Assembly: GCF_003605405.2 (NCBI RefSeq)
Contig: NZ_QYTW02000001.1
Coordinates: 380,367 to 444,366, forward strand
Direction of reading: 5' to 3'
Source of the DNA: Siminovitchia terrae
Lineage (GTDB): Bacteria; Bacillota; Bacilli; Bacillales; Bacillaceae_C
Length of the DNA: 64,000 bases
Part shown: piece by piece, positions 14,980-64,000 of the stretch
Layout of the letters: every line of letters starts with the position of its first letter
How positions within the stretch are numbered: position 1 is the stretch's first letter
Notes under the pieces: model-generated
Databases searched by the model: none
Told to the model about the DNA's origin: nothing
Seen by the model: the letters and a program-made list of their open reading frames with translations, nothing else
Translations under genes and position numbers: made by a program

Positions 14980-15127
14980 AACCAGACCTCACTTTCATGC
15001 GGAATTTGCATTTGCTGTCACGAATTTACCTTTTAAGATTCCATTAATTAGTGTTTTCTTCTTGTACACACAAAAAAACGAACATGCATACAATACCTCA
15101 ACTCCTTTATATGTTTTAATTTATCCA

Positions 15128-15320
15128 TCAAATGCGCCTTGGCGTATTTGCGCCCAGGTTTTATCGAGCTTAAGCTCGATAAATTCCCTCTGAAAATCAG
15201 TGGCATCCGCCGGAGGCTTTAACTTTATTCAGCCGGGGTTTGAACCCCTACTGAATGGAATACCAATATCCATTCATCTCACCACTTACAGAAGTGGGAG
15301 ACTTCTGAATGAAGTTAAAG
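15128..15320 (+). repeat. 190-bp structured intergenic repeat, copy R1
   Basis: Full-length copy. Left module: AAATGCGCC-TT-GGCGTATTT hairpin, then TTTATCGAGC...GCTCGATAAA hairpin. Right module: TTTAACTTTATTCAGC, a GGGGTTTGAACCCC hairpin enclosed by TTCAG/CTGAA, a CCACTT-ACAG-AAGTGG hairpin, and end TGAATGAAGTTAAA. Here the right module has lost TGC before TGAATG. Lies upstream of mrpA. Confidence 0.9.
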
Positions 15321-23569: not shown

Positions 23570-23592
23570 TTGCCTGTCACCACCCTAAAATA

Positions 23593-23773
23593 TCAAATGC
23601 GCCTTGGCGTATTTGCGCCCGGATTTTATCGAGCTCCGCTCGATAAAATCTGTGGCATCCGCCGAAGGCTTTGACTTTATTCAGCCGGAGTTTGAACCCC
23701 TACTGAATAGAATACCAATATGCTTCATCTCACCACTTACAGAAGTGAGAGATTTCTGCTGAATGAAGTTAAA
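23593..23773 (+). repeat. 190-bp structured intergenic repeat, copy R2
   Basis: Nearly full length; it lacks the AATTTCCTCTGA stretch between the CGAGC hairpin and AATCTGTGG. Right end GTTAAA faces the 3' end of glnL (77 nt); left end lies just upstream of the VanR-like gene. Confidence 0.9.
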
Positions 23774-27573: not shown

Positions 27574-27767
27574 TCAAATGAGCCTTGGCGTATTTGCGCC
27601 CAGATTTTATCGAGCTCCGCACGATAAATTTCCTCTGAAAATCTGTGACATCTGCCGGAGGCTTTAACTTTATTCAGCCGGGGTTTGAACCCCTACTGAA
27701 TGGAATACCAATAGGCATTCATCCCACCATTTACAGAAGTGGGAGACTTCTGCTGAATAAAGTTAAA
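27574..27767 (+). repeat. 190-bp structured intergenic repeat, copy R3
   Basis: Full length with point changes (CAAATGAGCC, GCACGATAAA, CCCACCATTT). Its right end GTTAAAC abuts the broken end of a methyltransferase gene fragment. Confidence 0.9.
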
Positions 27768-29117: not shown

Positions 29118-29275
29118 TTGATATCTCCCTCCTTTGTCAATGAAGTCTCTAACATCTTATGTGAAAATTTCATAAACATAGAGGATACAAGCACTAAGAT
29201 AGAAGCGTAAGTATAGCCTCTTTTGGCAAAAAATGAAGGTTTTGGGGTATATTATTGCTAGACGCTCTAGATCGA

Positions 29276-29456
29276 TCAAATGCGCCTTGGCGTATTTGCG
29301 CCCAGATTTTATCGAGCTCCGCTCGATAAAATCTGTGGCATCCGTCGGAGGCTTTAACTTTATTCAGTCGGGGTTTGAACCCCTACTGAATGGAATACCA
29401 ATATGCTTTCATCTCACCACTTACAGAAGTGGGAGATTCTGCTGAATGAAGTTAAA
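29276..29456 (+). repeat. 190-bp structured intergenic repeat, copy R4
   Basis: Same short variant as R2 (CTCGATAAAATCTGTGG without the AATTTCCTCTGA spacer). Right end faces the 3' end of the Rieske gene, separated from it by that gene's terminator. Confidence 0.9.
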
Positions 29457-29480
29457 TGTTTAATCTCACTTATACCAATT

Positions 29481-30669: not shown

Positions 30670-32007
30670 ATGGAAAATAAGTCGGAAAGCAGCATCATTA
30701 TCGGTGTTGACGATAAAGTAAGTTATCCCAAAGCTTTTGTTCTCGGGCTTCAGCACGTACTTGCAATGGATTTATATATAGCACCTATCATCATAGCAGG
30801 TCTTCTTTCATTAAGTGCCGAAAACACTTCTTTTTTCGTACAAATGTGCTTTTTGGCAACCGGATTGGCGACATTAATCCAAACAGGAGCCGGAATCAAG
30901 CTGCCAGTTGTTCAAGGTCCATCATATGTACCAATCGGTGCAATTGCCGCGATTGGCAGCAAACTAGGACTTGGTGCCATTGCCGGAAGCCTGATTCCCG
31001 GCGCCATTATTATGACACTTCTTGGCTATCCATTAAAAGTATTCGCTAAAGCCGTTAAAAAAATTATTCCGCCTCTTGTCGGGGGGACTGTCATTATTAT
31101 TGTGGGGATTTCCTTGATGCCTACCGGACTAAATAATATTTTCCTAGCAGAAGGAAATATCGGGGATAACGTCATTGTGGCCGCAGTTTCCGCCGGAGTA
31201 CTCATCGTTTGTATGCTGCTTGGGCGCAGATTAGCGAAGTTGGGAACTTTTTTCAGACTTGTATCCGTCATTGTGGCCATTGTTGTCGGGACCATTACTG
31301 CCAGTTTCTTTGGAAATATAGATTTTTCACCGGTAAAAGAGGCAAGCTGGTTTGCACTGCCATCATTCTTTCCATTCGGAAAGCCTATATTTGATATGAA
31401 CGCCATCATCACAATGGTCCTTGTCTATTTTATTATTTTGATGGAAACAACCGGAACCTGGTTTGTCGTCTCCTCCATTACCGGAAAAGAACTGGATGAA
31501 CCGCGGCTGAACCGAGCTTCTGTCGGAGAAGGACTCGGCTGCCTTGTCGGTTCTTTGTTCGGAAGCACGCCAATGACTGGATATTCTTCCAACGCAGGTC
31601 TTCTCGCGATCACTGGGGTGGCAAGCCGCATGGTTGTCATGGCTAGCGGGCTGATTCTCGTTTGCCTCGGATTGATACCAAAACTCTCAACTACCATCAC
31701 ATGTATTCCGGAGCCTGTCATCAATGGAATCTTTGGCATTGTTTGTGTAGCCATCGTCACGAATGGCATGAAAGTGATCCAGCCGATTAACATCGATGAT
31801 CGCAATATGATCATTATCGGCGTTCCCATATTACTGACCATCGCTGTGACTGTTTTGCCAAAAGAAGTGTTGACTGCAGTCCCTGACTGGGCCAACTATA
31901 TCCTTTCATCCGGAATCACTGTCGGAGCGCTTGCAACGGTAATTTTAAACTTATTGATCCCGGACAACAATAAGAACACTGACAAAGAGACGAAAGAAGC
32001 GGTTTAA
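30670..32007 (+). CDS. NCS2 family nucleobase (xanthine/uracil/urate-type) permease
   Basis: 445 residues, TAGGGAGCG before ATG, 12-14 membrane segments. NCS2 motifs: FVLGLQHVLAMDL, LPVVQGPSYVPIGAIAAIG, FGSTPMTGYSSNAGLLAITGVASR (the QxGx(S/T)-like loop). Closest in pattern to PbuX/PucK-type xanthine and urate permeases, H+ symporters. The TAA stop at 32005-32007 lies inside the first bases of repeat R5, so the native C-terminus may be altered. The former terminator lies beyond that repeat. Confidence 0.87.
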   Translation: MENKSESSIIIGVDDKVSYPKAFVLGLQHVLAMDLYIAPIIIAGLLSLSAENTSFFVQMCFLATGLATLIQTGAGIKLPVVQGPSYVPIGAIAAIGSKLGLGAIAGSLIPGAIIMTLLGYPLKVFAKAVKKIIPPLVGGTVIIIVGISLMPTGLNNIFLAEGNIGDNVIVAAVSAGVLIVCMLLGRRLAKLGTFFRLVSVIVAIVVGTITASFFGNIDFSPVKEASWFALPSFFPFGKPIFDMNAIITMVLVYFIILMETTGTWFVVSSITGKELDEPRLNRASVGEGLGCLVGSLFGSTPMTGYSSNAGLLAITGVASRMVVMASGLILVCLGLIPKLSTTITCIPEPVINGIFGIVCVAIVTNGMKVIQPINIDDRNMIIIGVPILLTIAVTVLPKEVLTAVPDWANYILSSGITVGALATVILNLLIPDNNKNTDKETKEAV

Positions 32008-32188
32008 CTTTATTCAGCAGAAGTCTCACACTTCTATAAGTGGTGAGATGAATGCCTATTGGAATTCCATTCAGTGGAGGTTCAAATCCCGGCTGAATAA
32101 AATTAAAGCCTCCGGCGGATGCCACAGATTTTCAGAGGAAATTTATCGAGCGGAGCTCGATAAATTCTGGGCGCCAAAGCTCATTTGA
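32003..32188 (-). repeat. 190-bp structured intergenic repeat, copy R5 (inverted)
   Basis: Reverse orientation. Its TTTAAC end overlaps the permease stop codon. The outer hairpin is damaged: GGGCGCCAAAGCTCATTTGA, missing the AAATACG arm. Confidence 0.9.
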
Positions 32189-32197
32189 TTCATGATG

Positions 32198-32234: not shown

Positions 32235-32302
32235 TCATATACCCCACTTTTCACATGGGGTCAAGCCGGCTTTCCCCACCATGCAAACTGAATGAACGGT
32301 GA

Positions 32303-32480
32303 TTTAACTTCATTCAGCAGAAGTCTCACACTTCTGTAAGTGGTGAGATGAATGGATATTGGTATTCCATTCAGTGGGGGTCAAACCCCGGCTGAATAAA
32401 GTTAAAGTCTCCGGAGGATGCCACAGATTTTCAGCGGAGCTCGATAAAATCTGGGCGCAAATACGCCAAGGCGCATTTGA
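32303..32480 (-). repeat. 190-bp structured intergenic repeat, copy R6 (inverted)
   Basis: Reverse orientation, direct repeat of R5 114 nt away. It lacks about 12 nt inside the CGAGC hairpin (TTTTCAGCGGAGCTCGATAAAA). The TCAAATG end faces the yfmR stop 52 nt away. Confidence 0.9.
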
Positions 32481-32531
32481 TAACGTCTTTACACATATTA
32501 TTTGGCAAACCTAATTTCATTTTTTTAGTCC

Positions 32532-36654: not shown

Positions 36655-36750
36655 ATGCTATGCAGTGTCATCAAAGACTATCAGTCCTGCTATCCCGACC
36701 CTAATGTTCATCGAAAAGAGGATGTATCATTTCCAAATTGGATTTTCTGA
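36655..36750 (+). pseudogene. truncated small SH3-like protein gene at a repeat junction
   Basis: Plus-strand frame reads MLCSVIKDYQSCYPDP-NVHRKEDVSFPNWIF then stop. The V-I-K-x-Y-x-S-x-Y-P-D-P opening followed by a Lys-rich turn and PNWI resembles small SH3-like proteins of Bacilli, which normally continue with a further strand. Here the frame runs into the start of the truncated repeat copy R7, so the gene's 3' end is lost. Weak ribosome site. Confidence 0.45.
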
Positions 36751-36880
36751 AAATCTGTGACATCCGCCGGAGGCTTTGACTTTATTCAGCCGGGGTTTGA
36801 ACCCCTACTGAATGGAATACCAATATGCATTCATCTCACCACTTATAGAAGTGGGAGATTTCTACTGAATGAAGTTTAAC
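36742..36880 (+). repeat. 190-bp structured intergenic repeat, copy R7 (left part missing)
   Basis: Starts at TCTGAAAATCTGTGACATCC; both left-module hairpins are gone. Right module intact except GTTTAAC instead of GTTAAAC at the end. Confidence 0.88.
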
Positions 36881-44160: not shown

Positions 44161-44246
44161 TTTTTCCCCTCCAACCTTCTTTTTTTATTATATATATATT
44201 ATAATATACCAAAAGTTAATTTTAATATGCAGAACAATGATTCTAA

Positions 44247-44438
44247 TCAAATGCGCCTTGGCGTATTTGCGCCCAGATTTTATCGAGCTCCGCTCGATAA
44301 ACTTCCTCTGAAAATCTGTGGCATCCGCCGGAGGCTTGCTTTATTCAGCCGGGGTTTGAACCCTCACTGAATGGAATACCAATAGGCATTCATCTCACCA
44401 CTTACAGAAGTGGGAGATTTCTGCTGAATAAAGTTAAA
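44247..44438 (+). repeat. 190-bp structured intergenic repeat, copy R8
   Basis: Full length, with GGAGGCTTGCTTTATTC in place of GGAGGCTTTAACTTTATTC. The right end GTTAAA is followed after 2 nt by the azlC ribosome site AGGAGG, so the repeat must be transcribed in the azlC leader or contain its promoter. Confidence 0.9.
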
Positions 44439-51045: not shown

Positions 51046-51085
51046 ATATTAAATCTTAATTCGAACAAAAGATTTCATTTAATTA

Positions 51086-51216
51086 TCAAATGCGCCTTGG
51101 CGTATTTGCGTCCAGATTTTATTCAGCCGGGGTTTGAACCCCCACTGAATGGAATGCCAATATGCATTCATCTCACCACTTACAGAAGTGAGAGATTTCT
51201 GCTGAATGAAGTTAAA
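51086..51216 (+). repeat. 190-bp structured intergenic repeat, copy R9 (internal deletion)
   Basis: Left hairpin joins directly to the right module: CAGATTTTATTCAGCCGGGG. About 60 bp between the TTTTAT before CGAGC and the TTTAT before TCAGC are gone, as expected from recombination between these short direct repeats. Right end faces the 3' end of the MFS gene (34 nt). Confidence 0.9.
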
Positions 51217-52410: not shown

Positions 52411-52549
52411 CTCATCCTCTCCTTCTATGTATGGAGATATATGAAACAATATAATCTGTTAACCATATCCAAGTCAATATTTTTAAAAGCCTGCGCAAAA
52501 AATAGGAGCTTCGCACCCGCGAAGCCCTAAATTAGTTTATTGAATATCA

Positions 52550-52743
52550 TCAAATGCGCCTTGGCGTATTTGCGCCCAGATTTTATCGAGCTCCGCTCGA
52601 TAAATTTCCTCTGAAAATCTGTGGCATCCGCCGGAGGCTTTGATTTTATTCAGCCGGGGTTTGAACCCCCACTGAATGGAATACCAATTTGCATTCTTCT
52701 CACCACTTAAAGAAGTGGGAGATTTCTGCTGAATGAAGTTAAA
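52550..52743 (+). repeat. 190-bp structured intergenic repeat, copy R10
   Basis: Full length and close to consensus. The right end GTTAAAC contains, on the minus strand, the TAA stop codon of the flavin monooxygenase gene (52739-52741). Confidence 0.92.
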
Positions 52744-57639: not shown

Positions 57640-58389
57640 TTACGATGTGATTAGCTCCTTGCCCGCTTTATTCAAGTCAAGGCTTTCCAAAATCTCTGTC
57701 TTCAGTTCCGCTAAAACGTTACTTCCCCTCGACCTAGGCCGGCTTTCATCGACTGTCAGTTCCTTGGCGATTTCTCCCGGTTGTCCCCGAAGAATAACGA
57801 TCCGGTCGCATAAATACGTTGCTTCGTCAATGTCATGTGTAACCAATACGATTGTCGTTTTGTGCTCTTTCCAAATATCAAGCAGCAAATCCTGCAATTG
57901 CATTTTTGTAAAAGCATCTAATGCACTGAATGGTTCATCCAACAACAGGATTTCCGGTGATGTGACAAGAGCACGGGCGATGGCAACACGCTGTGCCATT
58001 CCACCTGACAATTGCCTTGGATACAGATTTTCGCAATCTCTCAACCCGACACTTTCCAAGTATCGTTTTCCAAGGTTGATTTTTTCTTCCTTTTTACCTT
58101 TCAATCCAAAAATGACATTTTCCAACACAGTAATCCAAGGAAACAGGCGCGGTTCCTGGAAAATGAAACCTGTTGTATCATGAACATCTTTTGAGGTTTG
58201 GCCATTGATTGCTATTTCTCCTTCATACTCATTATCCAGCCCGGAAATCGCCCGTAATAAAGTGCTCTTTCCACAGCCGCTCGTACCCAGTATTCCGATA
58301 ATCTCACCTGGCTTTGCAGATAGAGTGATATTCCGGACCGCTGTTTTTCCAGCGAATGTCCGACTGACATTTTTCAATTCCAAGCCCAT
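57640..58389 (-). CDS. SsuB/TauB-like ABC transporter ATP-binding protein
   Basis: 249 residues. Walker A GTSGCGKST, Q-loop FIFQEPRLFPWITVLENV, signature LSGGMAQRVAIARAL, Walker B ILLLDEPFSALDAFTK, switch VTHDIDEATYL. Nitrate/sulfonate/taurine importer subclass. Follows the permease gene closely (16 nt) and precedes the CoA ligase (10 nt). Confidence 0.88.
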   Translation of the reverse strand: MGLELKNVSRTFAGKTAVRNITLSAKPGEIIGILGTSGCGKSTLLRAISGLDNEYEGEIAINGQTSKDVHDTTGFIFQEPRLFPWITVLENVIFGLKGKKEEKINLGKRYLESVGLRDCENLYPRQLSGGMAQRVAIARALVTSPEILLLDEPFSALDAFTKMQLQDLLLDIWKEHKTTIVLVTHDIDEATYLCDRIVILRGQPGEIAKELTVDESRPRSRGSNVLAELKTEILESLDLNKAGKELITS

Positions 58390-58405: not shown

Positions 58406-59251
58406 TTACGACTTCACAAGCCGATCCTGCCAATGCAATGTATGTTTTTCAATAACTTTGAGAATCCAGTCAGTCAATTTGCCAATGATAGCGAATAAGA
58501 TGATACTGGCAATGATCGTCTCCGGTGATAGTGTGTTCTGGCCAAGGACAAGCAAATACCCCAAGCCCTGACTGGCACCCATCAATTCCGAAGCCACAAC
58601 GAACATCCAGCCTAAACCCAAGCCGCTGCGCAGACCTACTAGGAAAGATGGCAAAGATGCAGGCAAAATCACTCTCGTCACTAACTGGAATGTACTTAAT
58701 CCGTACATTTTTCCGACCTCGACTAATTTACGGTCAACACCTGCAATCCCGCTGACAATATTTAAGTAAACCGGGAAAAAGACTCCGACTGCGATCATCG
58801 TTACTTTGGAGGGTTCGCCGATGCCCATCCATAGAATGAATAAAGGTACCCAAGCCAATGATGGAATGGAACGGAATGCTTGGATCATCGGATCAAAAAG
58901 ATATTCCGCTTTTTTATAAAAACCGACAAATGAACCTAAAACTACCGCAACAGCCGTTCCTAATATGAATCCCAAAAATACGCGGTAGGTTGTGATGCCG
59001 ACGTGCCCCCATAAGGAACCGTCCTGCGCCATTTTTTGAATGGTCGCCAGTATCATGGACGGAGCCGGGAGTTGATACGATGGAAATACTCCCAGCCGGC
59101 TTAAAGCCTCCCACGTCACCACAAGAATGATTGGCAGTAAACTTCCAAGTATGACCGGCTGAAAATTCCTCTTCTTTATACGGACTTTTTTCTTATCTGC
59201 CGGCCTTTCAGCGACGAGTACGGATGCTAACTCCCCTTCATGCTTTGCCAT
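58406..59251 (-). CDS. SsuC/TauC-like ABC transporter permease
   Basis: 281 residues with six membrane segments after a basic N-terminus. EAA loop GKMYGLSTFQLVTRVILPASLPSFLVGLRSGLGLGWMFVVASEL, AFRSIPSLAWVPLFILWMGIGE. Sulfonate/nitrate/taurine-type permease (BPD_transp_1). 22 nt after the binding-protein gene. Confidence 0.88.
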   Translation of the reverse strand: MAKHEGELASVLVAERPADKKKVRIKKRNFQPVILGSLLPIILVVTWEALSRLGVFPSYQLPAPSMILATIQKMAQDGSLWGHVGITTYRVFLGFILGTAVAVVLGSFVGFYKKAEYLFDPMIQAFRSIPSLAWVPLFILWMGIGEPSKVTMIAVGVFFPVYLNIVSGIAGVDRKLVEVGKMYGLSTFQLVTRVILPASLPSFLVGLRSGLGLGWMFVVASELMGASQGLGYLLVLGQNTLSPETIIASIILFAIIGKLTDWILKVIEKHTLHWQDRLVKS

Positions 59252-59273: not shown

Positions 59274-60263
59274 TTATTTGCCTTCAATTTCTTTTTCTGC
59301 AAATGACGGATCAATTAATTTTGAAGTCAACTCTTCAAGATCGGCTCCTGAATCGATCACATCACTTTCTACTAAAATTTTACCTGCCTCAATTAACGCT
59401 TTACGTTGAACATCACCTGGCACAGGCTCTGTAAAATCATTGCGTTCGAGCTGAATACGTGCTACATCTTCCGGGATGCTCGCCTCTTCCGCCAACAGTT
59501 TTACTGCTTCTTCCGGGTTATCAAGCACCCATTGCCTTGCTTTCTCGTAGGCTTTGATAACACGCTGTACGTATTCAGGATGTTTTTCAGCAAAATCTTC
59601 CCGTACGTTTAAAAATCCATACGTATTAAAGTCGGGATTACGGTAAAATAATTCGGCACCTGTTTCGATTTCAAGGCGAGCCATATGAGGGTCAAGTCCA
59701 GCCCACGCATCTACTGATCCATTTGTCAGTGAAGTCGCTCCGTCTCCATGCTGCAGGTTCACAATCTCCACATCATCCACTGCTACACCTTCTTTATCTA
59801 AAGCACGAAGGAGAAAAATATAAGGGTCAGTTCCAAGAGTTGCTGCAACTTTTTTTCCTTTTAAATCTTTTACTGATTTAATGTTGGAATCCTTGCTTGT
59901 TACAAGCGCTGTCCATTCCGGCTTGTTGGCAATATACACGTTTTTGATCGGCGCTCCATTTGCCTTGGATATCAATGTAGCCGCTCCTGCAGCTGATCCG
60001 AAATCGACACTGTTGCTGTTTAAAAATTCGAGGGCTTTATTACTTCCCTGACTTAATGTCCACTCGATTGCAATACCATCATCTTTAAACTCATCTTCCA
60101 AGTAGCCAAATTTTTTCAAAACCAAACTTGTTGGCGAATAATAAGCATAATCCAATCTGATTTTTTCAGGTTTTTCTTCCGATTTGGCATTCGAAGAACA
60201 ACCCGATATTAGTAAAAGAATCCCCAAAAGGCTGATGGCCAAAATTGATGTTAATTTTCTCAT
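59274..60263 (-). CDS. SsuA-like ABC substrate-binding lipoprotein
   Basis: 329 residues; lipobox LLISGCSS. SsuA/NMT1 family: LDYAYYSPTSLVLKKFGYLEDEFKDDGIAIEWTLSQGSNKALEFLNSNSVDFGSAAGAATLISKANG, SVDAWAGLDPHMARLE. Binds sulfonates or related organosulfur in the family; the ligand here is unknown. GGAGAGGG before ATG. Second gene of the S-box operon. Confidence 0.88.
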   Translation of the reverse strand: MRKLTSILAISLLGILLLISGCSSNAKSEEKPEKIRLDYAYYSPTSLVLKKFGYLEDEFKDDGIAIEWTLSQGSNKALEFLNSNSVDFGSAAGAATLISKANGAPIKNVYIANKPEWTALVTSKDSNIKSVKDLKGKKVAATLGTDPYIFLLRALDKEGVAVDDVEIVNLQHGDGATSLTNGSVDAWAGLDPHMARLEIETGAELFYRNPDFNTYGFLNVREDFAEKHPEYVQRVIKAYEKARQWVLDNPEEAVKLLAEEASIPEDVARIQLERNDFTEPVPGDVQRKALIEAGKILVESDVIDSGADLEELTSKLIDPSFAEKEIEGK

Positions 60264-60288: not shown

Positions 60289-62094
60289 TTAAAGCTCACA
60301 CGCATATGTGGAAATGGTTCCACGTAATCTTTGTGCTTCTTTATACGTACATCTGTTATAAACGACTGGAATCCCTGCTTTACTTGCTATTTCTGCAGCC
60401 TCAGGAGATATGACACCTTCCTGCAGCCAAAAAATTTTCGGTTTTGGGTTCACTTCCACTGTTTCTTTCGCGACGCCAATCGCTGCTTCTGGAGTTCTGA
60501 ATACTTGAACTACGTCGATCGGATATGGAACGCTTTTTAAATCCGGATAAGCTTTTTCACCCAAGATTTCCGTTTCCCTCGGATTGACTGGGATCACTTT
60601 ATAGCCAAGCCTTTGCATCTTACGGGCCAATCGATAGCTTGGCCTTGCTTCTTTTCCACTTAATCCAACAATAGCCAAAGTCTTTTGGCGGGTAATCTCC
60701 TGTCCATTTTCCAATACACGCTCGGTTGCAGAGTTCAGCGCCCAGCGAATTACACCTTCATCATTGATCAGGACAGACTTCCCTTCTCCTTCACCAATAC
60801 CAGTTGCTTTGATTAAGGCTTGATCAAGATCATTCTGAATATCCCGCAGAGATTCAATTCCGACCGACAAACGGACGAGTGACTCGGTTACACCTGTTTC
60901 TTCCAGTTGTTCCTTGGTCAATTGCTGGTGTGTTGTGGAAGCCGGATGAATGATGAGAGATTTCGCATCGCCGACATTTGCTACATGTGACCATAACGAA
61001 ACGTTGTTGATCAGATCTTTCCCAGCTTCTTTTCCACCCTTGATGCCAAAAACAATAATGGAGCCAAAGCCATTATTGAATATTTCTTTTGCTAGACCGT
61101 GTGAAGGGTGGCTCTCGAGTCCCGGGTAGGATACCCATTCCACTGCCGGGTGGTTTTCAAGGTTTTCCGCAAGCCTGGCGGCATTTTCATTATGGCGTTC
61201 TACACGTATATGCAAGGTTTCCAATCCCTGTATAAGCTGGAAAGCATTTTGCGGACTTAGTGCTGCACCGAAATCGCGAAGTAATTGAACTCTGACTTTC
61301 GTGATAAATGCCAATGTTCCAAAATCAATAGCATAACGAATTCCATTGTAACTTGCATCGGGCTCGGTGAATTCAGGGAATTTTTCTGTATTCCAGTTAA
61401 AGCGGCCTCCATCAACAATGACACCTCCGATGGATGTACCGTGTCCCCCGATCCACTTTGTTGCGGAATGTACAACGATATCAGCCCCAAGCTGAAGTGG
61501 TTTACACACATGCGGAGTGGCAAATGTATTGTCGATGATTAAAGGTACCCCTGACTCATGGGCAATCTCAGATACTGCTTCAACATCCAGCACCTGAAGG
61601 CCTGGGTTTCCAATAATTTCACCGTAAACAGCTTTCGTTTTATTGGTAATGGCTGTTTTAAAGTTTTCCGGGTCGGTTGGGTCGACAAACTTAACATTGA
61701 TTCCATAGCGCGGAAGTGTCACAGCGAAAAGGTTATATGTACCTCCATAAAGGTTTGTTCCCGCTACAATCTCATCACCGGCGCTTGCCAAGCTTAGGAT
61801 CGATAACGTAATAGCTGACATTCCGGATGAAGTGGCCACCGCCGCTACCCCATCTTCAAGCAATGCCATTCTTTTTTCAAATACATCCACCGTCGGGTTC
61901 CCGATACGTGAATAGATGTTTCCCGGCTCATCCAAAGCGAATAATCTTTCAGCATGCTCCGTATCATGAAAAACAAATGAAGTCGTTTGATAAATCGGAA
62001 CTGCTCTTGATCCGGTAGTAGGATCCGGTGCCTGACCTCCATGTAATGCCAATGTTTCAAGATCATACGTTGTGTTTTTAATTTCTGTTGTCAT
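60289..62094 (-). CDS. metY: O-acetylhomoserine sulfhydrylase fused to a CoA-binding domain
   Basis: 601 residues from ATG 62094 (GGGGGG, 7 nt). Cys/Met metabolism PLP enzyme over the first 430 residues: [48 protein letters not shown] Lys213 in [10 protein letters not shown]. It joins O-acetylhomoserine with sulfide or methanethiol to give homocysteine or methionine. The last 130 residues are a CoA_binding (YccU-like) Rossmann domain: [65 protein letters not shown]. First gene of the operon, under tandem SAM-I riboswitches. Confidence 0.93.
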
Positions 62095-62118
62095 TTTAAA
62101 TCCCCCCGGTTTAGTCAA

Positions 62119-62147
62119 TAAAAAAGCCCTCTTCATAAGAAGAGAGC
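62119..62147 (-). terminator. attenuator terminator of the proximal SAM riboswitch
   Basis: GCTCTCTTC-TTAT-GAAGAGGGC then TTTTTT, 25 nt before the metY start. Formed when SAM is bound. Confidence 0.85.
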
Positions 62148-62170
62148 CGTTTATAATCGTTTCGTTTTTC

Positions 62171-62288
62171 TCTTCTTATCTTCCAGGAGTTGCCTCCTGC
62201 TGGAATTGGCACCTTATTAAGTTGATCATTTCAACTTAATGGTTGCCGGGCATCATCGGGCCAGTCCCTCCGCCTCTCTTGATAAGAA
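62171..62288 (-). ncRNA. SAM-I (S-box) riboswitch, proximal copy
   Basis: Minus strand: P1 TTCTTATC/GATAAGAA, AGAGaGGcgGAGGGAcTGGCCCgATGAtgCCCGGCAACC core in pieces, P3 hairpin, GGTGCcAATTCCaGCAG, then P1 close. All S-box landmarks are present. Binds S-adenosylmethionine and switches off metY and the downstream genes. Confidence 0.95.
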
Positions 62289-62312
62289 TCACCTTATTTA
62301 ATTGTTTCAAAT

Positions 62313-62339
62313 AAAAAACCTCTCATGAAAGATGAGAGG
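62313..62339 (-). terminator. attenuator terminator of the distal SAM riboswitch
   Basis: CCTCTCAT-CTTTC-ATGAGAGG followed by TTTTTTAT. Gives the distal riboswitch its own expression platform. Confidence 0.88.
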
Positions 62340-62354
62340 GTGTGTCTTTATCTT

Positions 62355-62466
62355 CCTCTTATCTTTCCGAGCAACATGCTCAGCTGGATTTAGCACCTTT
62401 TAAGTATCAACTTCAGGTTGCCGGGTGTCATCAGGCCAGATCCTTCCACCACTCTTGATAAGAAAG
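62355..62466 (-). ncRNA. SAM-I (S-box) riboswitch, distal copy
   Basis: Minus strand: CTTATCAAGAGtGGtgGAAGGAtcTGGCC, TGAcACCCGGCAACC, GGTGCTAAATCCaGC, and closing GATAAGAG. A second complete aptamer directly upstream of the first. Confidence 0.95.
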
Positions 62467-62498
62467 TATTTAATTAGTTTGCATTATTGCTAAGTAGA

Positions 62499-62527
62499 AG
62501 TCTAGCACGGTACTTTTTCGTTGTCAA
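62499..62527 (-). promoter_or_regulatory. sigma-A-type promoter of the S-box operon
   Basis: TTGACA, 17-nt spacer, TAGACT, placed about 30 nt before the distal aptamer. Confidence 0.75.
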
Positions 62528-62626
62528 TTGTTTTTTCAAATGTTTTCCGATTCGTTAAGTTTGTTTAAAGAGTTGCTCCTGTATTTTTATTGCCATACAA
62601 TGGGCTCCAACCAACATCTGCGAAAG

Positions 62627-62773
62627 TCAATTTTGTGCAGGAGAATCGTTTTTTTTCGGGTCGTCAGCGCCTCTCTTCACAATTTCATTTAATTCTCCTT
62701 TATCGCCTTTCGCATTTACGATTTCCAATATTTGGTTTAACCCCTCGCTGGTCTGGTCGTGATTATTTTTCAA
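62627..62773 (-). CDS. 48-residue hydrophilic small protein
   Basis: Read by hand. TTG start at 62773, 7 nt after GAGGAGG. Sequence MKNNHDQTSEGLNQILEIVN, then AKGDKGELNEIVKRGADDPKKND and a short tail. No membrane part; one probable amphipathic helix and a flexible acidic end. Not recognised. It ends about 100 nt before the S-box promoter, in the same direction. Confidence 0.6.
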   Translation of the reverse strand: MKNNHDQTSEGLNQILEIVNAKGDKGELNEIVKRGADDPKKNDSPAQN

Positions 62774-62835
62774 CGCTTTGCCTCCTCGTATTTTCATATG
62801 CTTAGCATTCCGCGTTGAACTTTAAAAATTCCCTA

Positions 62836-63027
62836 TCAAATGCGCCTTGGCGTATTTACGCCCAGATTTTATCGAGCTCCGCTCGATAAATTTCCTTTAA
62901 AAATCTGTGGCATCCGCCGGAGGCTTTAACTTTATTCAGCCGGGGTTTGAACCCCACTGAATGGAATACCAATAGGCACTCATCTCACACTTACAGAAGA
63001 GGGAGACTTCTGCTGAATGAAGTTAAA
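62836..63027 (+). repeat. 190-bp structured intergenic repeat, copy R11
   Basis: Full length with a few losses (GAACCCCACTGAATGG, CATCTCACACTTACAGAAGAGGG). On the minus strand its TTTAAC end provides the TAA stop of the gene at 63023. Confidence 0.9.
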
Positions 63028-63538
63028 TTTCATTCAATAGCTCCAGACTTTTTAAAACATGGTCCAAGAAAGGAACAACCTCTCTCATGTTATCCTCGCT
63101 AATTTTCGTATTGAATTTCACCTTTATCCGATTTAAATAACTAGAAGCTTCTTCCCCATATTTGAAGCTCAGTGTTTGCGTCAGCTCAATATCGTTTTCC
63201 CAGACGGCGTACAGTGCCTCTCTAATTTGTTCGCATTGTACAGAGACATCGTGAACACGCTTGAAAAATTGCAGTTCAAGGGAACAGCCTGGGATTGCAT
63301 CCGGAATTTCAAGAATTTCTCCAGCCAAATCTTCCAAGGAAGCGGCCAACACAACTTCCGCCATCACTTCTGGCAGTCCAATTAATGTGAATTTCATCGA
63401 TAATTCCCTCGAGAGAACGGCGTGATTCGTACGATCTGCCCTGTCAACGATCGCAATCAAGCCATCGATATTATCCAGGTCATATATGCGGTTTTCAAAT
63501 GCGACTTTTAAATTTTCAAAATGTGTTGGATCATACAT
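63023..63538 (-). CDS. protein of unknown function
   Basis: 171 residues; the start at 63538 overlaps the preceding MFS gene's stop, so translation is coupled. Soluble, mostly helical, acidic: FENRIYDLDNIDGLIAIVDRADRTNHAVLSRELSMKFTLIGLPEVMAEVVLAASLEDLAGEILEIPDA. No motif I recognise. The stop codon is inside repeat R11, so the native C-terminus may have been different. Confidence 0.6.
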   Translation of the reverse strand: MYDPTHFENLKVAFENRIYDLDNIDGLIAIVDRADRTNHAVLSRELSMKFTLIGLPEVMAEVVLAASLEDLAGEILEIPDAIPGCSLELQFFKRVHDVSVQCEQIREALYAVWENDIELTQTLSFKYGEEASSYLNRIKVKFNTKISEDNMREVVPFLDHVLKSLELLNEI

Positions 63539-64000
63539 ATAAAGTATTCCTTCCAGATAGTTTCTTCACTTTAAGCGCCAAGAAAATTGAAACAGCCAGC
63601 AGGCCAATGGTAAAACCCACTACCCCGCTCCAACCATAGCGGGACCAAAATATACCGCCCACAGATCCTCCAACACTAGAGCCCATATAATAGGCAAATA
63701 AATAGAGTGAAGATGCCTGGGCTATATCATGCGTAGCATGGCGGCTGACCAATCCGCTTGCAACGGAATGGGCGCCGAAAAAACCGAACGTCAACACGAT
63801 AATGCCGATGATTTTATAAAATAAAGGCACTGGAAGCGTCAATAAAACCCCCAATAACATGAGCAGCACACCCAAGGTGATTAACAACGGCCGACCAAAT
63901 TTGTCTCCCAACATCCCGAACCAGGTAGAACTGAAAGTTCCAACCAAATAAACGATAAACATCCACCCAATGATTGTCATGCTCAAAAGATAAGGAGGCT
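63531..64000 (-). CDS. MFS transporter, C-terminal part (5' end beyond window)
   Basis: The frame is open to the right edge; about 156 residues are visible, with five to six membrane segments. MFS repeat motif WFGMLGDKFGRPLLITLGVLLMLLGVLL and SSLYLFAYYMGSSVGGSVGGIFWSRYGW are typical of the YnfM-like MFS branch. Substrate unknown. Confidence 0.8.
   Translation of the reverse strand, partial: PPYLLSMTIIGWMFIVYLVGTFSSTWFGMLGDKFGRPLLITLGVLLMLLGVLLTLPVPLFYKIIGIIVLTFGFFGAHSVASGLVSRHATHDIAQASSLYLFAYYMGSSVGGSVGGIFWSRYGWSGVVGFTIGLLAVSIFLALKVKKLSGRNTLYV

Follow-up and report, generated by a model that had tools for sequence, protein, structure and literature searches.

The metY leader of Siminovitchia terrae carries two complete SAM-I riboswitches (S-boxes) in series, which probably act independently of each other, as transcriptional OFF switches that form a pseudo-cooperative pair; we infer SAM binding, termination and the independence of the two units. 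The locus lies in a window of 64,000 nt, i.e., the whole stretch of DNA that was analysed (assembly GCF_003605405.2, contig NZ_QYTW02000001.1, positions 380,367 to 444,366 of the forward strand), and all positions below are relative to this window. The sequence itself already shows the aptamers and terminators, the pairings that exclude each other, a good promoter ahead of unit 1 with no good match between the units, and the conservation of these elements.

Aptamers, terminators and promoter of the metY leader

Rfam returned exactly two matches at gathering level in the whole window, both to RF00162 and both on the minus strand (Table 1). Their scores are far above the gathering score of this family (44.4), and both cover the full model of 108 positions, so that chance can be excluded. 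This bears out the preliminary description of two complete S-box aptamers in series, and neither of them falls below the family threshold. The span originally assigned to the element (62171-62466) includes both aptamers and the terminator of unit 1, but misses the terminator of unit 2, the promoter and the strand. The gap from unit 1 to unit 2 is 67 nt long and contains no open reading frame. Alignment by eye indicated that J1/2 and the internal loop of P3 correspond to the Rfam consensus in both units. According to the accessible part of PMC10853860, the changes in spermidine-binding SAM-I variants sit in these same two regions. A spermidine-type altered ligand for one of the units was therefore set aside, with the variants compared by region rather than by individual letters.

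Table 1. Positions of the leader elements, the downstream genes and the copies of a dispersed repeat in the window.
Feature	Position	Strand	Basis
Promoter: TTGACA (62527-62522), 17-nt spacer, TAGACT (62504-62499), TG before the -10 hexamer	62499..62527	-	motif scan and 4 congeners
SAM-I aptamer, unit 1 (distal)	62356..62464	-	RF00162, 89.9 bits, E 4.3e-20, model 1-108
Antiterminator, unit 1: P1 3' strand 62367-62355 with 62339-62327	62327..62367	-	prediction
Intrinsic terminator, unit 1: stem 62339-62319, then TTTTTT	62313..62339	-	terminator scan and folding
SAM-I aptamer, unit 2 (proximal)	62173..62288	-	RF00162, 98.6 bits, E 1.3e-22, model 1-108
Antiterminator, unit 2: 62179-62169 with 62145-62135, 11 pairs	62135..62179	-	prediction
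Intrinsic terminator, unit 2: stem 62148-62125, then TTTTTT	62119..62148	-	terminator scan and folding
Ribosome-binding site GGGGGG, 7 bases 5' of the ATG at 62094	62102..62107	-	read from sequence
metY: O-acetylhomoserine sulfhydrylase with fused C-terminal CoA_binding_2 (PF13380), 601 aa	60289..62094	-	TIGR01326, 651 bits over 495
ssuA-family sulfonate-binding protein	59274..60263	-	TIGR01728, 252.9 bits over 163.5
SsuC-like ABC permease	58406..59251	-	PF00528; PRK11365 190.5 bits, below its cut-off 347
SsuB-like ABC ATPase	57640..58389	-	PF00005; PRK11247 228.2 bits, below its cut-off 395
Dispersed repeat, reference copy	62834-63028		
Dispersed repeat, near-full copies (approximate)	15127-15319, 23591-23773, 27574-27767, 29275-29457		
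Dispersed repeat, near-full copies (approximate)	32003-32189, 32302-32482, 44246-44438, 52549-52743		
Dispersed repeat, partial copies	36750-36879, 51084-51216		

Both the separate terminator of each aptamer and the TTGACA-17-TAGACT promoter in front had been named in the preliminary description, and both were recovered here. Terminator-like sites were more numerous on the two strands of positions 61500-64000 (9 sites) than in shuffled sequences (1.9 +/- 1.5). Promoter-like sites in the same region and on both strands showed no excess, with 4 sites against 5.1 +/- 2.6 expected from shuffles. The promoter at 62527-62499 matched 10/12 positions and tied for best in this region with one other site, but it alone has a TG ahead of its second hexamer; before unit 1, this combination was reached by 0/300 shuffles. 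Since promoter-like matches were not commoner than in the shuffles, the argument for this promoter comes from where it lies and from its conservation among the congeners. The best promoter-like match in the 67-nt spacer between the units was 7/12, which 29% of the shuffles reached.

As S-boxes are generally described, SAM holds P1 and thereby frees the terminator. The P1 3' strand of each unit is predicted to be able to pair instead with the 5' arm of its own terminator, and as modelled the expression platform fits an S-box OFF switch, twice in series. When each unit was folded whole without ligand, P1 and the terminator formed together. Hence, the ON state must depend on the co-transcriptional order of folding. 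Together with the more stable terminator of unit 2, this counts against the OFF-switch reading.

The start of metY was taken as the ATG at 62094; the mechanical open reading frame starts at 62136, within terminator 2. An AMP-binding enzyme gene follows 10 bases beyond the SsuB-like gene. The leader does precede a metY-like gene, as first described, but its control probably extends over the ssu genes: judging from spacing and strand, metY (with its CoA-binding fusion), ssuA, ssuC and ssuB are probably controlled as a unit on a single transcript, rather than metY alone.

Conservation and origin of the two units

We searched six genomes of the genus Siminovitchia for S-boxes and for the fused protein; L010, L011, L012 and L027 are apparently the same as G004, G001, G002 and G003, and were counted as one set. 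The fused metY was present in five of the six genomes (the sixth, G005, is without it), and the tandem pair stood in front of it in all five. The gap between the units measured 67-69 nt in four of these genomes and 220 nt in S. fordii, while the promoter hexamers and their spacing were identical in all five, i.e., the window and four congeners. A second metY paralogue, unfused and preceded by one S-box only, also occurs in the genus, including in the genome of the window.

Between species, unit 1 was on average 95.4% identical (92.7-98.2%) and unit 2 92.4% (89.5-100%). For the same species pairs, identity was 45-86% at the fourfold sites of metY and 40-70% in the stretch upstream of the promoter. 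Because both units are conserved above the fourfold sites of metY, both are maintained by selection. The two units of one leader were only 68.9% identical, in an identity table that also took in seven other S-boxes of the window's own genome. These comparisons indicate that the Siminovitchia units are under selection and are not homogenised. We therefore give very little weight to the alternative that one unit works and the other is a dispensable leftover. Either unit can be absent in Gracilibacillus, where a distal-type unit has survived in L016 and a proximal-type unit in both L021 and L047, and L015 has a 28.2-bit remnant alone. Within Siminovitchia, however, conservation of both units far exceeds that of the metY fourfold sites and the upstream stretch, and both keep their aptamer, antiterminator and terminator.

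At the S. fortis locus (L012:4791-5100), the fused metY and both S-boxes are kept, and the ssu site holds only a 141-nt fragment of ssuB. The gaps of S. fordii (L011:2591-2810) and of Gracilibacillus massiliensis (L029:2541-2791) contain GC-richer inserts that are absent in close relatives, and a 30-nt piece of the S. fordii insert matches another place in the genome of the window (L001) at 90%; possibly, these inserts are dispersed repeats. A dispersed repeat of about 195 nt was also seen in the window itself, where its copies are 87-93% identical to the copy at 62834 (Table 1). At least 41 copies occur in the window's genome, based on the scoring of 40 of 601 first-look candidates. Three congeners gave 15 to 41 copies, and none was found in two others. 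This repeat folds far better than shuffles (z -6.8). It had no Rfam match at gathering level, and a search for repeats around it found none.

Among 264 loci with metY relatives, the best 80 were compared with Rfam; the gathering level was applied to 78 of them and E values up to 0.1 to the other two (L088, L089). By tblastn and a hand tally, the fused protein was present in 44 of these best 80 loci and the unfused protein in 36. Two or more S-boxes stood directly before metY in 17 of the 44 fused loci versus none of the 36 unfused loci, within the same best 80 of 264; these loci are kin to each other, so that the two fractions are not independent trials. Four further pairs occurred elsewhere, three of them more than 1 kb upstream of metY and one downstream (L035, L046, L052, L067); should L046 or L052 prove to head an operon with metY in it, the counts would increase by one in each class. 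A single S-box lies downstream of metY in L088, and in L089 a truncated 41.0-bit match lies far upstream, which leaves the counts unchanged. In the window and the 17 tandem loci, a terminator-like hairpin followed all 37 aptamer units, the weakest being that of unit 2 in L013 (-5.6 kcal/mol). Matches to SsuA, SsuC and SsuB followed metY in 10 of the 17 tandem loci, and none did so in the six loci of Fredinandcohnia and B. timonensis. Natronobacillus azotifigens (L024:2407-2931) has three S-boxes before metY, of which units 1 and 2 are near-copies of each other and lie far from the rest of the aptamer tree (68.7 and 74.4 bits).

The aptamer tree comprised 71 aptamers and 114 columns, with long branches and with 22 of its 65 inner branches open. 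For Siminovitchia, the copies of unit 1 shared one branch (98/98) and those of unit 2 another (93/92), and unit 1 was placed beside unit 3 of L024 (92/82), to which it is 83% identical. In Fredinandcohnia and B. timonensis, the distal units grouped with a different S-box from the genome of the window (100/95), one that stands before an acyl-CoA-dehydrogenase-like gene there. A single ancient origin of the distal units in three lineages was rejected (p-AU 7.2e-5); this suggests that the distal unit arose repeatedly, in different lineages. Three other groupings into one clade were not rejected: the distal units of Siminovitchia and Gracilibacillus/Saliterribacillus (p-AU 0.089), units 1 and 2 of Siminovitchia, in line with unit 1 being a copy of unit 2 (p-AU 0.23), and the proximal units of Siminovitchia and Gracilibacillus/Saliterribacillus (p-AU 0.26).

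In the window, the four congeners and six Gracilibacillus/Saliterribacillus pairs, the gap between the units held a promoter-like match of at most 8/12, or none; 19-85% of the shuffles reached these matches. In all six Fredinandcohnia/B. timonensis loci (L042, L043, L044, L048, L050 and L053; gaps of 200-270 nt), i.e., in six of the 17 tandem relatives, a TTGACT-17-TATAAT site (11/12) occupies the same aligned position in the gap; for each locus, 0-1.7% of 300 single-base shuffles scored as high. The best sites before unit 1 in these six loci are weaker, with 9-10/12 positions reached by 1-33% of the shuffles. An RNA started at the inner site would encounter only unit 2, and the Fredinandcohnia/B. 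timonensis tandem may thus be bypassed at unit 1. With a promoter-like site between its units, a tandem on the map need not always be in series. L024 likewise has an 11/12 site between units 1 and 2, none between units 2 and 3, and an unconvincing 8/12 site before unit 1.

Predicted response of the pair

As a pair of independent OFF switches, the leader would operate as follows. The polymerase would start at the promoter in front and make unit 1. With SAM bound to aptamer 1, P1 would keep its 3' strand, terminator 1 would form and a short RNA would be released. Without SAM, the P1 3' strand would pair with the 5' arm of terminator 1, and transcription would proceed to unit 2, which would repeat the same SAM decision. 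Only transcripts that pass both units would reach metY and the ssu genes. Readthrough would then be the product of two probabilities, so that the leak at high SAM would be multiplied down and the maximum somewhat lowered.

We explored this arrangement with a toy model of independent switches and assumed readthrough limits. In the model, the 90-10% span narrowed from 81-fold to 40-fold at best, with an apparent Hill number of at most 1.19. Leaky units of equal affinity gave a span of 46-51-fold, and units with affinities 10-fold apart one of 55-89-fold, i.e., little or no gain, with none or even the reverse when such units also leak. The repressed level decreased from 0.1 to 0.01 (or from 0.05 to 0.0025). 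The maximum fell as well, from 0.8 to 0.64 (or from 0.7 to 0.49, and from 0.9 to 0.81). Tighter or steeper repression had been proposed for this leader at the outset. The model supports the first, because leaks multiply, but gives only a weak version of the second. Hence, the tandem is expected to provide mainly tighter repression, with little gain in steepness.

The set-points of the two units may have drifted apart, with unit 1 as a coarse gate and unit 2 as the final gate. Different half-maximal SAM concentrations would make the response broader or shifted rather than steeper. This would refine the reading as independent switches rather than exclude it, and we consider it rather unlikely. 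Predicted energies favour the antiterminator in unit 1 (-14.1 versus -10.9 kcal/mol for the terminator state) and the terminator in unit 2 (-12.2 for the antiterminator versus -15.7 kcal/mol, i.e., terminator ahead by 3.5). In the window and in all four congeners, unit 2 has the stronger terminator hairpin, and the two units of a leader, 69% alike, are not homogenised. However, these energies are predictions from which affinity for SAM does not follow, the cores of both aptamers agree with the consensus, and the pattern is inconsistent outside the genus: in L050 the hairpin of unit 1 is the stronger one, and in L013 that of unit 2 is the weakest of all (-5.6 kcal/mol).

Direct coupling between the units appears highly improbable. 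In such a scheme, after readthrough of unit 1, its free P1 5' strand would capture the P1 3' strand of unit 2, thereby shifting unit 2 towards its terminator. The P1 arms of the two units do fit over 8/8 positions, and exactly these two strands are paired in the minimum-energy fold of the entire leader, which would speak against independence of the units if that fold arose. Yet this fit is family-wide, with a mean of 7.41/8 within the 17 loci versus 7.46/8 between loci, and the spacers between units range from 67 to 270 nt among the relatives. Because the P1 arms fit equally well across different loci, the cross-pairing in the whole-leader fold was not taken as evidence of coupling, and a specific strand exchange between the units is unsupported.

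More speculatively, different set-points, repeated gain and inner promoters can be combined into a single, doubtful picture. A distal, antiterminator-favoured pre-gate with the weaker terminator and a proximal, terminator-favoured final gate would give one sulfur operon two thresholds for SAM. The distal unit would probably have been gained repeatedly, and one lineage would have been uncoupled by a promoter between the units. If such uncoupling did apply, part of the published tandem count may not represent serial logic.

Comparison with known tandem riboswitches

According to the accessible part of PMC9481103, the two aptamers of the tandem glycine riboswitch share one expression platform. 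The metY leader resembles it in having two aptamers for one ligand in one leader, but differs in having a terminator for each. Because a separate terminator follows each aptamer, and one of them lies between the aptamers, a shared platform with glycine-type cooperativity was set aside, in agreement with the preliminary description.

Pairs of SAM riboswitches before ssuA, ssuB and ssuC in Bacillota are reported in the accessible part of PMC12452182, where the genes are named hydroxymethylpyrimidine transporters and linked to thiamine. The window has a riboswitch pair before the same ABC-transporter families in the same phylum. In contrast to the reported pairs, as far as that part describes them, it stands before metY and a SsuA that scores over the sulfonate-family cut-off. 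Judging from metY and the SsuA score, sulfur supply (sulfonate) fits this locus better than thiamine.

Our searches on tandem SAM-I, S-box, metY, sulfonate genes and pseudo-cooperative riboswitches, with most subscription journals outside their coverage, found, among the papers listed, no report of this locus and, within the same scope, none of promoters between tandem riboswitch units.

Sherlock et al. 2022 (PMC9481103), in the part accessible, count 164 double arrangements and one triple arrangement of SAM-I riboswitches, for which they predict pseudo-cooperative behaviour. Their tandem rule requires that no open reading frame lies between the units and that the gap is at most 300 nt. The gaps of the six Fredinandcohnia/B. 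timonensis loci (200-270 nt) would also pass this rule, as far as it is described there. Because rules on gap and open reading frames admit cases with an inner promoter-like site, counts of serial devices from maps alone are upper bounds. The window pair belongs to the same class twice, with a 67-nt gap and a platform for each unit, and thus falls within the published rules. Short and clean, it probably works as a serial pair on an operon for sulfur assimilation. Since the same genome has an unfused metY behind a single S-box, the benefit claimed for pairing can be tested side by side. Compared with the tandems in the accessible part of PMC9481103, the locus shares two SAM-I riboswitches in one leader, a platform for each, no open reading frame between them and a gap below 300 nt, and it differs in nothing of kind: it is real, conserved and otherwise ordinary, with a tandem SAM-I design that has already been published.
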